A stretch of 64,000 nucleotides of DNA from Candidatus Kryptonium sp. (GTDB taxonomy: Bacteria; Bacteroidota; Ignavibacteria; Kryptoniales; Kryptoniaceae), in NCBI GenBank assembly GCA_025060635.1, contig JANXBN010000001.1, forward strand, positions 186,001 through 250,000, read 5' to 3'. Both the position numbers and the translations under genes were made by a program. The notes below the pieces were generated by a model. The model worked only from the letters and a program-made list of their open reading frames with translations. It had not been told where the DNA came from and did no database searches. Of the stretch, positions 24,693-29,335 are shown piece by piece (position 1 is the first letter of the stretch; each line of letters opens with the position of its first letter).

Positions 24693-26093
24693 ATGAGTTT
24701 CCACCCAAGGTTTACAAACAAACTTGAGACCGTCATGCAAAGTGAATATAGGAAATATCTTGAGACGGCAAAGAAGGTATTTCAGGAGAACAAAACTTTA
24801 ACTCTCGTAAGCCAGGGGAAGGATGGTAAAGTTTGGGCTGGGAAAGTTTATTTCGCCGAGGAAGATGGATATATTTATGTCGCTCTTGAGAAGGGGAAAA
24901 ACTATAAAAACATCATTGAAAATCCTCGCGTGTTTTTCGTCATTGAGCGCGGTGTCCCGGATAAATTTATTCAGGGCGAAGGCATTGCTGAAATGCTTGG
25001 GGACATAACGGAGCGATCGGAGAGAAGCATAATTTTCAGAAAAGCTATTGAACTTGTTGTTTACGCAAAGAAAATCCCAGGTGTTACGCTATTTAGAATA
25101 AGACCAACCAAACTTTACATCTCTGATTTTACTGAGGAATGGAAACCGAGAGCGGAAATTGAGTTCACAGACGAGGTGATGAAACTTTTCCAAACAGAAT
25201 TGAAAACAAAATTTAATTTTTTCAAAGTTGCGTTTAAAGCTTTAAGACCATTTGCTTTCCCTGCAACAATTGCTCCAGTTTTACTTGGAACTTTCATAAG
25301 CCCGCATGTTTCAATTCCGCTGTTTATTCTTGTTTTCATAGGTCTTATACTTGCTCACTCCGCTGTGAATGTTTTAAGTGATTACTTTGACTATGTTAGA
25401 GGAGTAGATACATGGCGCGTGCTTGGCTCAAGCAGGGTGCTTGTTGATGGGTTGATGAAACCGAAACATCATCTTTTGCTTGGGGTTGTTTTGCTTATTT
25501 TATCACTTGCGATTGGTTTTTATTTTGTATTTGCCGTTGACTATAGAGTTTTATATTTCATAATCCCAGGTTTGATCCTTGGAATTTTTTACACTGCTCC
25601 ACCACTTGGATTTAAATACAGAGCGCTTGGGGATTTGGCAGTTTTCCTTGCTTTCGGACCTATCATGACGCTTGGTGTTTATTTTATCCAAGCTCGGGAA
25701 ATCTCGTGGCTTCCTGTTATCCTTTCAATCCCAATTGGTTTATTAACAACTGCAATTTTACACGGAAATAATTTTAGGGACATAAAAGAAGACATTGAAG
25801 CTGGATATAAAACTCTTGCGGGCATCATTGGGGCTAAAGCATCAAGTTATTATTACACTGTGCTCGTTTTGCTTGCATATTTATTGACAGTTTATTTTGT
25901 TTTCAAAAACTTTTTGCCAACCGCTGCTGTTATTTCATTCATAAGCTTGCCGATTGCCATAAAAAATATAAAAGTATCTTTCAATCAGGCGCTTGTGAAT
26001 TTCACTTTTCTTGATCTGTTAACAGCCAAGCTTCAGCTTTATTTCTCGTCTTTGTTGATAATTGGGATAATTTTGGAGAGATTTTTGATTTAA
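24693..26093 (+). CDS. Split-barrel flavin-binding domain fused to MenA-type prenyltransferase
   Basis: 466 residues in two parts. Residues about 10-150 form a pyridoxamine-5'-phosphate-oxidase-like split barrel ('TLTLVSQGKDGKVWAGKVYFAEEDGYIYVALEKGKNYKNIIENPRVFFVI'). Residues about 185-466 are a UbiA-superfamily membrane prenyltransferase with Asn226-xxx-Asp230-xx-Asp233 ('NVLSDYFD') and the second Asp pair Asp363/Asp367 in 'NNFRDIKEDIEAGYKTLA', which is close to MenA (dihydroxynaphthoate polyprenyltransferase). The barrel could bind FMN, F420 or haem near a quinone product. The fusion is uninterrupted in one frame. The CDP-alcohol phosphotransferase gene follows by 28 bases. Confidence 0.85.
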   Translation: MSFHPRFTNKLETVMQSEYRKYLETAKKVFQENKTLTLVSQGKDGKVWAGKVYFAEEDGYIYVALEKGKNYKNIIENPRVFFVIERGVPDKFIQGEGIAEMLGDITERSERSIIFRKAIELVVYAKKIPGVTLFRIRPTKLYISDFTEEWKPRAEIEFTDEVMKLFQTELKTKFNFFKVAFKALRPFAFPATIAPVLLGTFISPHVSIPLFILVFIGLILAHSAVNVLSDYFDYVRGVDTWRVLGSSRVLVDGLMKPKHHLLLGVVLLILSLAIGFYFVFAVDYRVLYFIIPGLILGIFYTAPPLGFKYRALGDLAVFLAFGPIMTLGVYFIQAREISWLPVILSIPIGLLTTAILHGNNFRDIKEDIEAGYKTLAGIIGAKASSYYYTVLVLLAYLLTVYFVFKNFLPTAAVISFISLPIAIKNIKVSFNQALVNFTFLDLLTAKLQLYFSSLLIIGIILERFLI

Positions 26094-26121: not shown

Positions 26122-26655
26122 ATGAAGTCCGTGTTAAGTTTAAAACTTGCAGCGGACATCTTGACAACTTTGAGATTTTTTATCGGGCTCTACATAATCA
26201 GATTTTCTAGTTTTGAAGTGAAAGATGGAGTGATATCGGCTTCGCTTTTTTTGTGGGTTGCTTGGGTGACAGATCTTCTTGATGGTTCAATCGCACGACT
26301 TGAACCGAGAAAAATTCAAACTTGGATTGGTAGGCATGATTTAACTGCCGATGTCACCGTTGCATTTGGAAGTTGGTTGTTTTTAACGCTTTCAGGTTTA
26401 ATTAGTCCGTTTATTGGCTTTGGCTATATTTTGTTGAGTGCGTTTTTGTTGTTGTATTTCAAATCTGAACATCTTGCGTGGGGGTTACAAGCACCGCCAT
26501 ATGGTATGATGATTTTAACAGCTTTGAAATATGCACCAGAATATGGCGCGTTGCTTATCGTCTGGATTATAATTGTTGTGATCGTAACTTGGCCAAGGTT
26601 TCCGAAGTACACATTGCCCGAATTTTTAAGAGGAATGAGAGCATTGTTCAAGTGA
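26122..26655 (+). CDS. CDP-alcohol phosphatidyltransferase-family membrane protein
   Basis: 177 residues with about five membrane helices. The CDP-alcohol phosphotransferase signature reads 'DLLDGSIARLEPRKIQTWIGRHDLTAD' (about 54-80). The first D-xx-DG-xx-AR part is perfect. The Gly-to-third-Asp spacing is one residue shorter than the consensus G-x3-D-x3-D, so catalytic competence is slightly uncertain. It would transfer a phosphoalcohol from CDP-diacylglycerol or a similar donor. It follows the UbiA fusion gene closely and may share a membrane-lipid or quinone role. Its end overlaps lutC (opposite strand) by 8 bases. Confidence 0.75.
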   Translation: MKSVLSLKLAADILTTLRFFIGLYIIRFSSFEVKDGVISASLFLWVAWVTDLLDGSIARLEPRKIQTWIGRHDLTADVTVAFGSWLFLTLSGLISPFIGFGYILLSAFLLLYFKSEHLAWGLQAPPYGMMILTALKYAPEYGALLIVWIIIVVIVTWPRFPKYTLPEFLRGMRALFK

Positions 26656-27259
26656 GAATTATGTAAACTTTTTGAGGTCCGTGGACTCCACGAACGAGCA
26701 CCTTTTCAATATCTGCTGTCCGACTCGGTCCAGTGATAAGGAAAATTGAATCAAAATTTCCATCAATTCGTTTAACAAGCTCCTCAAATGTTGAGATTAT
26801 CTGAGTTTTATTTGCGATAACAATATGTATCCTTGGCAGTAAGACGGCGGATTTAAATTTATTTTCTCTGTGAATAAATACTATAGTTCCCGTCTCCGCA
26901 ATTAGAAAGTCGCACCCTGTAATTGAAGCATCAACATCAGCAAGCTGTTTTTCTGAGTGTGGTTGGGTTATTATTTGGCTAACTTGTAAATCTTTGATCT
27001 TCTCATCTATGCTTTTTTCAAAGTTTTCGGCGAAAATTTTTTGGATATTTTCCGATGAAATTATTTCCGAAAGCTTTTTATAGATTTCCTTGGGCTTTGC
27101 TTCTATGAGATTTCCGCCAACCCTTTCAAATTCAAATTTAAATCTTTCCACGCTCTCACTTGAAGCAGGGGTTTGATCTGTTTCAATTTCGGGCAACGGT
27201 GTTTTGTTAATTTGATAAGTTTTTAAAGTTTGTATTATTTGCTTTCTTGCCTCCTCCAT
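26648..27259 (-). CDS. lutC: LutC/YkgG-type LUD-domain protein
   Basis: 203 residues of one LUD domain, with 'ADVDASITGCDFLIAETGTIVFIHRENKFKSAVLLPRIHIVIANKTQII' and the C-terminal 'SIFLITGPSRTADIEKVLVRGVHGPQKVYIIL'. It is the third subunit of the LutABC L-lactate oxidation complex. Its start overlaps the end of lutB by 25 bases. Confidence 0.92.
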   Translation of the reverse strand: MEEARKQIIQTLKTYQINKTPLPEIETDQTPASSESVERFKFEFERVGGNLIEAKPKEIYKKLSEIISSENIQKIFAENFEKSIDEKIKDLQVSQIITQPHSEKQLADVDASITGCDFLIAETGTIVFIHRENKFKSAVLLPRIHIVIANKTQIISTFEELVKRIDGNFDSIFLITGPSRTADIEKVLVRGVHGPQKVYIILT

Positions 27260-28620
27260 ATTTCTCTAAATGATTTTGGTGCTATTTCAGGGAAAGTTCT
27301 CCATTTAGACCAATTTTTTAACTCTGGTTTTATTCCAATTTTGCGAATGTATCTTAAAATCTTCGCTCCAAATTCATAAAGTTTATGATTTTTCATCCCA
27401 ATGAGCCAAAGTTTGAAGATTAATTTCTCAATCCAAGGTGAGAAATCTTGTTCAACTGCTTTGTGTCTAAGCCAAAGCAGAAGGTGATGAATTTCTATCT
27501 TAACTGGACAAATTTCGTGACATTTTCCACATAAAGATGAAGCGAAAGGCAAAATTAAAGCTTCATCAAACGCAAATTGAACAGGAGTTAACACAGAACC
27601 GATTGGACCTGGATATATTGAGCCATAGGCATGACCTCCAACTCTTTGATAAATCGGACAAGCAAGCATGCAGGCGCCACATTTTATGCAGTAAAGTGCT
27701 TGTTTTAATTTTTCCGACCTCAACAAATTAGTTCTGCCATTGTCAACCAAAATGACATAAATTTCTTCAGGGGAATCAGGTTTCTTGTTTCTCGGTGCAT
27801 TTATAATTGAAACATAACTTGTGAACCTTTGGGCGGTTGCACTTCTGCCAAGGATTTTGAAAAAGATCGTCAAATCAACAAGCCGTGGGATCACCTTTTC
27901 AATTCCAGCGATGACAATGTGAACCTTTGGAAGCGTCGTGCTTAAGCCAGCGTTTCCCTCGTTTTCTACTATGACAATTGAGCCGGTTTCAGCAACGAGG
28001 AAATTTGCGCCAGATATACCAAGGTCAGCATTTAAAAATTTTTCTCTTAAAAATCTTCTTGCTATTTTCGTTAGGTTTTCAGGTTCATTTGTAAAATCAA
28101 CACCGAGTTTCTCCGCAAACAATTTCCCAATTTCATCTCTTGATTTATGCATTGCTGGAGCTGTAATATGAGAGGGCATTTCATTCGCAAGTTGAACTAT
28201 GAATTCGCCAAGATCGGTTTCAACGGTTTCAATTCCTTTTTCCTCAAGAAATTCCCTTAATCCAATTTCTTCAGTCACCATTGATTTGGATTTAACACAT
28301 AACTTTGCGTTGATCCTTCTTGCTATATCAATTACATAACTTCTTGCCTCAGCTGCATCTTTAGCCCATAGAATTTTTATTCCATTTTCAGTTGCTTTTT
28401 TCTCAAAGTTTTCAAGATAATATGCAAGATTCTCAATTGTGTGTTTTCTTATGTTGTGCGCTTTTTCTCGCAGTTCCTCCCAATTCGTAAGTTCCGATAC
28501 GACCTCAATTCTCTTTGAAAGCGTATGAGTGATCGCGCGATTTAAATTTTTCCTTAAAGTTTGATTGGTAAGAGCCCACAACACATTTTCCTTGAATTTT
28601 GTCAAATCATGGTTCCGCAT
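27235..28620 (-). CDS. lutB: LutB iron-sulfur lactate utilisation protein
   Basis: 461 residues. The N-terminal LUD domain (about 60-290, 'FLVAETGSIVIVENEGNAGLSTTLPKVHIVIAGIEKVIP') is followed by two [4Fe-4S] ferredoxin-type motifs, 'CIKCGACMLACPIYQ' and 'CGKCHEICPVKI'. A C-terminal DUF3390 region comes last. It carries electrons in lactate oxidation to pyruvate. It lies between lutA and lutC on one strand. Confidence 0.94.
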   Translation of the reverse strand: MRNHDLTKFKENVLWALTNQTLRKNLNRAITHTLSKRIEVVSELTNWEELREKAHNIRKHTIENLAYYLENFEKKATENGIKILWAKDAAEARSYVIDIARRINAKLCVKSKSMVTEEIGLREFLEEKGIETVETDLGEFIVQLANEMPSHITAPAMHKSRDEIGKLFAEKLGVDFTNEPENLTKIARRFLREKFLNADLGISGANFLVAETGSIVIVENEGNAGLSTTLPKVHIVIAGIEKVIPRLVDLTIFFKILGRSATAQRFTSYVSIINAPRNKKPDSPEEIYVILVDNGRTNLLRSEKLKQALYCIKCGACMLACPIYQRVGGHAYGSIYPGPIGSVLTPVQFAFDEALILPFASSLCGKCHEICPVKIEIHHLLLWLRHKAVEQDFSPWIEKLIFKLWLIGMKNHKLYEFGAKILRYIRKIGIKPELKNWSKWRTFPEIAPKSFREIWRRQESK

Positions 28621-28630
28621 ATGATTTAAG

Positions 28631-29335
28631 CTAAAAGTTTGCTAAAATTTGTGCTATGTGAATTGTTTTAATGTTAATTTTATTTTTCCTTGCGTAGCCG
28701 TCAATGTGCATTAGGCAACTTTGATCTGTTGATGTTATAAATTCAGCTCCGGAGTTCAAAGCATAATTTAGTTTATACTTTGCCATATCAATTGATATCT
28801 CTGGGAACTTGATTGAAAAAGTGCCACCGAAACCGCAACAATCTTCAGAATTTTCCATCTCAATTAATTTTAATTTTTTAACATTCCTTAAAAGAATTCT
28901 TGGCTCTTCTTTGATCCCGAGTTCCCTCAGCGCATGGCATGAGTCGTGGTATGTAACTTTATGATCAAATTCAGCACCAGTTGAGTCAATTTTCATAATT
29001 TTTACGAGAAACTCGGTCAATTCAAAAGTTTTTTGCGCAATGTTTTTAAGTTCATCTTCGTTTAAAAGCTCTGGATAAAAAATCTTAATCATACTCGTGC
29101 ATGATCCGGATGGGGAAACGATATAGTCAAAGTTTGAAAAAATTTTGACAAATTTTATGGCAAGCGACTTTGCTTCCTTCCAATATCCTGTGTTGAAAGC
29201 CGGTTGCCCACAGCAGGTTTGTTCAAGTGGATAATCAAATTTTATTCCAAATTTTTTCAAAATTTTTACAGTTGCAACTCCAACTTCGGGGTAGAATTGG
29301 TCAATATAACACGGGATAAAAAGTGCAACCTTCAT
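28631..29335 (-). CDS. lutA: LutA cysteine-rich (CCG-domain) lactate utilisation protein
   Basis: 234 residues with two CCG domains: 'CCGQPAFNTGYW' in the first and 'CCGFGGTFSIKFPEIS' in the second. 'YHDSCHALRELG' lies between them. These cysteines bind iron-sulfur clusters in this family, which includes GlpC and HdrB. It is the first gene of lutABC; the promoter must lie in 29336-29500, where I see no convincing minus-strand boxes. Confidence 0.93.
   Translation of the reverse strand: MKVALFIPCYIDQFYPEVGVATVKILKKFGIKFDYPLEQTCCGQPAFNTGYWKEAKSLAIKFVKIFSNFDYIVSPSGSCTSMIKIFYPELLNEDELKNIAQKTFELTEFLVKIMKIDSTGAEFDHKVTYHDSCHALRELGIKEEPRILLRNVKKLKLIEMENSEDCCGFGGTFSIKFPEISIDMAKYKLNYALNSGAEFITSTDQSCLMHIDGYARKNKINIKTIHIAQILANF

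Follow-up and report, generated by a model that had tools for sequence, protein, structure and literature searches.

A conserved fusion of a PNPOx-type split barrel and a UBIAD1/MenA-type prenyltransferase in Candidatus Kryptonia and other Bacteroidota

We describe a gene of Candidatus Kryptonium sp. that encodes a PNPOx-type split barrel and a UbiA-superfamily prenyltransferase in one polypeptide (Table 1), a conserved new architecture made of known parts that occurs full length in 15 genomes from four Bacteroidota families (Ca. Kryptonia and the families designated here f16, f34, and f64). Among solved structures, the nearest match to the prenyltransferase domain in sequence searches is human UBIAD1. 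We tentatively suggest that the protein may be a membrane-bound reductive prenyltransferase, in which the barrel would reduce a naphthoquinone and the UbiA domain would prenylate it.

Table 1. Coordinates of the fusion gene, its domains and motifs, and the following gene in the window (the entire 64,000-nucleotide stretch of DNA that was analyzed)
Feature	Positions	Strand	Basis
Two-domain protein gene	24735..26093	+	452 aa counted from conserved start
PNPOx-type split-barrel domain, residues 24-157 of the 466-aa ORF	24762..25163	+	Pfam, PDB profile matches, conservation
GKNYKNIIENP segment	24894..24926	+	Conserved in fused and stand-alone barrels
Variable linker between domains	25164..25232	+	1 of 23 positions invariant in 15 fusions
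UBIAD1/MenA-type UbiA prenyltransferase domain	25233..26090	+	Pfam UbiA, PDB match, one clade
First Asp-rich motif NVLSDYFDYVRGVD	25368..25409	+	Alignment
FYTAPPLGFKYRALGDL segment, typical of MenA/UBIAD1-type enzymes	25587..25637	+	Alignment
Second Asp-rich motif NNFRDIKED	25767..25793	+	Alignment
CDP-alcohol phosphatidyltransferase family gene, next after fusion	26122..26655	+	Pfam

One reading frame in four families

The window sits on contig C1 of a 2.5-Mb genome, the named close relatives of which are Candidatus Kryptonia, Candidatus Chrysopegis kryptomonas, and Candidatus Kryptonium thompsonii. The listed ORF (24693-26093, + strand) has 466 codons and is uninterrupted by a stop. Since the ATG at 24735 is the common start of five aligned Kryptonia relatives and the 14 codons upstream of it are without conservation in that alignment, the true start is probably 24735 rather than 24693.

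A preliminary description of this DNA had read a PNPOx-like barrel as continuous with a UbiA enzyme and had named a sequencing error joining two frames as one objection to that reading. Our searches for the same two-domain architecture, carried out within Bacteroidota (395 genomes) and within the class of the host (391 genomes), bear out the continuity. The N-domain query matched 17 genomes of the phylum, 6 of them with a fusion (our own genome included), and an 11-row profile matched 41 genomes of the class, 14 of which carry a fusion (6 in Ca. Kryptonia, i.e., f1, 4 in f16, and 4 in f64); the remaining 27 class matches are stand-alone barrels or fragments found in f7 and f14. Two further fused genomes come from f34, which belongs to another class. 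Besides the 15 full-length copies, two fusions are cut by contig ends (G005 and G368), and of the six same-genus genomes, five have it complete, whereas the sixth (G005) has a fragment at a contig edge. An artifact of sequencing or assembly would thus have to recur as a continuous two-domain ORF in each of 15 genomes from four families, with different flanks; no point in its favor was found, we assign it practically no probability, and it is regarded as ruled out. No relative was found on plasmids or in the viral contigs scanned. No paper on the fusion was among the matches listed in our literature search, the scope of which excluded most subscription journals and all preprints.

Across the 15 fusions, 70 of 133 positions (53%) are invariant in the N-terminal core versus 109 of 280 (39%) in the UbiA domain, and mean identity between f1 and the other families is 70-75% for the N-domain versus 57% for the UbiA domain. 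Being more conserved than the enzyme to which it is joined, the N-domain would hardly be vestigial or a mere passenger.

The N-terminal domain is a split barrel with a predicted flavin site

The assignment of the N-terminal domain to the split-barrel family, also made in the preliminary description, is supported by Pfam and by profile matches in the PDB. In hmmscan against Pfam, PNPOx_N matched residues 24-142 with an E value of 8.9e-6 and 26.5 bits, just below the 28.1 cut-off; in the search of its own genome, the same barrel scored 29.8 bits and exceeded that cut-off. PNPOx_N was unreported at E 0.001 in three of the six other fusions scanned. When the N-domain was compared with the PDB by phmmer, 1rfe and 3ec6 were retrieved (E 0.003). 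With a profile that combined six fused barrels and five stand-alone ones, we retrieved 3ec6 (E 4.9e-4), 1rfe (0.0018), and 3tgv (0.0064), weak matches that are consistent with those from Pfam and phmmer. The proteins so matched (E 5e-4 to 0.006) are General stress protein 26, Rv2991, and the haem-binding HutZ (0.0064); among the rows without significance are Ddn (0.53), an FMN-binding protein related to PNPOx (0.24), and unrelated proteins such as Rho kinases (E 0.40-0.45).

In fused and stand-alone barrels alike, Trp and Pro are invariant at the end of the domain, and the GKNYKN segment follows the pattern G-N-N. The Lys/Arg-Asn of GKNYKNIIENP would correspond to the FMN-phosphate region of PNPOx-type barrels, with a putative role in cofactor binding. 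AlphaFold2 models built with four close sequences each had a mean pLDDT of 41.4 for the whole protein and 42.0 for the N-domain, and were unusable for judging a pocket. Judged by title, each of the 50 Foldseek rows listed for the low-confidence N-domain model was either a barrel-type protein or a flavin/haem/F420 protein, and no row had E < 0.001.

The cofactor had been given as flavin, F420, or haem, and our data narrow this toward the first. CofD, the product of the F420 synthesis gene cofD, was detected in 0 of 17 genomes by a search that in its control scored above cut-off in 3 of 14 known genomes; F420 appears unlikely on this basis and was dropped. We also dropped haem, which is an unlikely cofactor given that the N-terminal core has no invariant His, Cys, or Met among the 15 fusions (Tyr lay outside this haem-ligand test); the window protein is, in fact, without any cysteine. 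FMN or FAD is the choice left, and the barrel is predicted to bind flavin.

The prenyltransferase domain resembles human UBIAD1

Both Asp-rich motifs could be located in MenA form, as the preliminary description had it, within a domain that Pfam UbiA matches over residues 193-423 (E 4.6e-36, 124.8 bits, above the 34.2 cut-off). In the first of these motifs, N, D, D, G, and D are invariant in 11 of 11 alignment rows. The leading NCBIfam models for the window protein are all MenA-type, and every one is below its cut-off; TIGR00751 (menA) scored 101.6 bits against a cut-off of 102.15, i.e., 0.55 under, and the fusions of G121 (102.9), G044 (126.5), and G552 (117.7) exceeded it. In a PDB search, human UBIAD1 (8djk) was the best and only match to the UbiA domain (E 3.5e-35), whereas the canonical MenA from G044 matched it with E 1.9e-18, which corresponds to 125 bits for the fusion domain versus 70 bits for canonical MenA. 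When five fused and six non-fused relatives were combined in a profile, UBIAD1 was matched at 1.3e-57, and chlorophyll synthase and digeranylgeranylglyceryl phosphate synthase only near 1e-7.

In a maximum-likelihood tree of 58 rows, the 15 fusion UbiA domains form one clade (support 100/99), with MenA-like proteins of f14 beside it (90/71), and with E. coli MenA and the canonical MenA of f16 placed away from it. UBIAD1 is a long, unplaced branch in this tree, although its similarity to the fusion domain is the highest. Inside the clade, f34 joins f16 and f64 (99/96) despite belonging to another class, which suggests horizontal transfer.

The fusion occurs alongside different sets of quinone genes

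We looked for a separate menA and for men or mqn genes, as had been proposed. Our own genome encodes five UbiA proteins, the other four being of the haem O synthase, TIGR01475/MqnP, geranylgeranylglycerol-phosphate, and decaprenyl-phosphate phosphoribosyltransferase types. It also encodes two MqnA/MqnD-family proteins and an MqnE above its cut-off, and no MenD above cut-off (a weak match is a TPP enzyme). With these mqn-type genes present and a domain that is more UBIAD1-like than a canonical MenA, a reading of the gene as simply the organism's MenA is not supported. The idea that it is the sole menaquinone prenyltransferase of Kryptonia was dropped for the same MqnP-type enzyme, beside which, judging from gene content, the fusion is an extra enzyme.

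The other families differ. MenD was found above cut-off in none of 17 further genomes, those of f16, f34, and f64 included, and MqnA/MqnD searches covered our own genome, f34, and three f16 genomes (G044, G289, and G368). The f34 set of UbiA proteins consists of a haem O synthase, an MqnP-type enzyme, and the fusion, with three MqnA/D-family proteins in each of the two genomes. In f16, the set comprises a haem O synthase-like protein, a canonical MenA, a second MenA-like protein, a phosphoribosyltransferase-like protein, and the fusion, and no MqnA/D scored above cut-off in the three genomes searched. The four f16 genomes (G044, G289, G368, and G668) thus have a canonical MenA-type enzyme yet no MenD, which, with MqnA/MqnD in 0 of 3, would point to either quinone salvage or an undetected route. 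In the four f64 genomes, only a haem O synthase-like protein, a phosphoribosyltransferase-like protein, and the fusion were found, which leaves the fusion as the one quinone-type prenyltransferase detected there, again with no MenD. Given these differing sets, the fusion tracks no single head-group route.

Gene neighborhoods

A CDP-alcohol phosphatidyltransferase gene follows the fusion in the window and in all five Kryptonia relatives mapped, and the two genes are probably co-transcribed in Kryptonia; no biosynthetic cluster surrounds the fusion gene there. Converging on this operon is a lactate-utilization-type operon of LUD-domain/LutB-like and Cys-rich-domain genes (26648-29335, - strand). 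In both f34 genomes, a chorismate synthase gene lies 13-19 bases downstream of the fusion in the same direction, and in f16, a 4-hydroxyphenylpyruvate dioxygenase-like gene lies ~4 kb away.

We also examined 26 loci, 25 of which have a stand-alone barrel; a UbiA neighbor is present in 4 of these 25 and absent in 21, with only about 1.5 kb of flank in 14 of the 26 loci. In f44 and f56, four genomes encode the barrel separately, directly upstream of a UBIAD1-like gene. The idea that these split operons represent the unfused ancestor is weakened by the tree, in which their UbiA genes do not group with the fusion.

Two other arrangements were observed. Three f44 genomes have three tandem UbiA-like genes in a cluster that also contains a YCII-domain gene and a stand-alone barrel of the PNPOx type (L140:9760-14265; L139:1-4126; L141:6024-10382), with a TetR regulator next in two of the three and with one UbiA-like protein lacking a Pfam match; this is possibly an unrecognized prenylation operon. 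In f7 (L174, L175, L176, and L177), the stand-alone barrel lies between L-aspartate-oxidase-like and aminotransferase-like genes (named by eye).

Proposed function and alternative explanations

We propose that the split barrel would bind FMN (or FAD) and reduce an incoming naphthoquinone, either menadione-like or an oxidized naphthoate intermediate, to the hydroquinone, to which the UBIAD1/MenA-type domain would then attach a polyprenyl chain with Mg2+, yielding a menaquinone-type lipid. In Kryptonia and f34, the fusion would act beside the head-group route rather than replacing it, most likely in salvage or remodeling, and in f64 it may alone be responsible for tailing the quinone. We infer from relatives that the barrel binds flavin and acts as a reductase, which acceptor is used, and that the two steps are coupled. 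One study of UBIAD1 reports no MK-4 without DTT and takes this to mean that reduction of menadione has to come first (PMC4398444), and another reports reduction of menadione to menadiol by the split-barrel Ddn and two homologues (PMC3567243); from these two findings, we propose the flavin barrel as the supplier of hydroquinone.

Several observations count in favor of a reductive prenyltransferase: the split-barrel membership of the N-domain together with the UBIAD1 likeness of its partner, the higher conservation of the N-domain, the lack of CofD and of an invariant haem ligand (which favors flavin), the position of the fusion as sole quinone-type prenyltransferase found in f64, its place ahead of chorismate synthase in f34, and the f44/f56 barrel genes upstream of UBIAD1-like genes. 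Counting against it are a PNPOx_N score below cut-off in the window protein, the lack of a PNPOx_N match at E 0.001 in half of the other fusions scanned, the presence of HutZ among the profile matches, the 21 stand-alone barrel loci without a UbiA neighbor, the split-operon UbiA genes outside the fusion clade, and the futalosine genes of Kryptonia (MqnA/D-family, MqnE, and MqnP-type), with which salvage is not required. On balance, we consider the reductive prenyltransferase a serious possibility, albeit one that falls short of being probable.

The fusion could instead be an ordinary dihydroxynaphthoate-type polyprenyltransferase that substitutes for MenA or MqnP, with the barrel as a minor accessory, e.g., one that keeps the acceptor reduced or protected from oxygen. 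The TIGR00751 scores, which exceed the cut-off in three fusions and approach it in the window protein, and the lack of any other such enzyme in f64 speak for this explanation, which we nevertheless find rather doubtful, as Kryptonia and f34 have a separate MqnP-type enzyme, f16 has a canonical MenA, and a supply of DHNA via the MenD route is unsupported in f16 and f64. PNPOx-type barrels commonly dimerize, and this habit, together with the HutZ match, would fit a barrel that is not redox-active and controls the prenyltransferase as a dimerization, ligand-sensing, or haem-sensing domain. We hold such a role to be distinctly unlikely, because no His, Cys, or Met is invariant in the core and because the N-domain surpasses the enzyme half in conservation, which in our judgment exceeds what a dimerization module usually needs. 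Still less probable is an acceptor other than a respiratory quinone, such as a homogentisate-type compound or a secondary-metabolite precursor: the dioxygenase-like gene near the f16 fusion and the co-occurrence of other quinone-type prenyltransferases in three of the four families would agree with it, but the Kryptonia gene is outside any biosynthetic cluster, UBIAD1, its nearest solved relative, is a naphthoquinone enzyme, and f64 has no other such enzyme that we could find.

A more specific form of the reductive prenyltransferase, which we rate as unlikely, is a bacterial vitamin K salvage synthase. It would pick up an oxidized naphthoquinone nucleus, whether environmental or released by turnover, and would use flavin to reduce it before re-tailing it. 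Animals make MK-4 from menadione in a similar way; here, the reductase would be part of the same polypeptide. Since neither MenD nor another quinone-type prenyltransferase was seen in f64, tailed respiratory quinone would there come from the fusion alone, and these bacteria would be vitamin K auxotrophs. Ca. Kryptonia is a lineage of high-temperature springs, and the conspicuous nutritional deficiencies reported for its genomes (PMC4737851) fit salvage but do not show it. The conserved fusion names a candidate source of the electrons that reduce the UBIAD1 acceptor, and a thermophilic fusion protein offers a system for probing the electron source of UBIAD1-type prenylation. If the proposal is true, the fusion would serve as a bacterial model for UBIAD1 and, in bacteria whose quinone pathways are incomplete, as a genomic marker of quinone salvage.

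Comparison with known systems

UBIAD1, the human vitamin K2/MK-4 synthase (PDB 8djk and 8djm), aligns across the whole UbiA domain of the fusion and shares its YxALGD and ILHxNNxRD segments, but has no barrel. It contains a CxxC motif to which its authors assign a redox role, in contrast to the cysteine-free window protein. MenA (1,4-dihydroxy-2-naphthoate polyprenyltransferase) resembles the fusion in its top NCBIfam models and in the form of its Asp-rich motifs, whereas the fusion has an additional N-terminal domain, branches apart from E. coli MenA and the canonical MenA of f16, and is found beside MqnP-type or canonical MenA enzymes. Ddn/Fqr and PNPOx-type split barrels are the counterparts of the N-domain, with General stress protein 26, Rv2991, and HutZ as its profile matches; the Ddn match itself is non-significant, and Ddn uses F420, for which none of the 17 genomes searched here has the synthesis gene cofD. 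Finally, IspH-UbiA fusions likewise have a redox domain N-terminal to a UbiA domain and are read by their authors as a Rosetta stone protein. IspH, however, is an iron-sulfur enzyme that feeds prenyl donors, whereas the flavin-type barrel described here could act on the acceptor.
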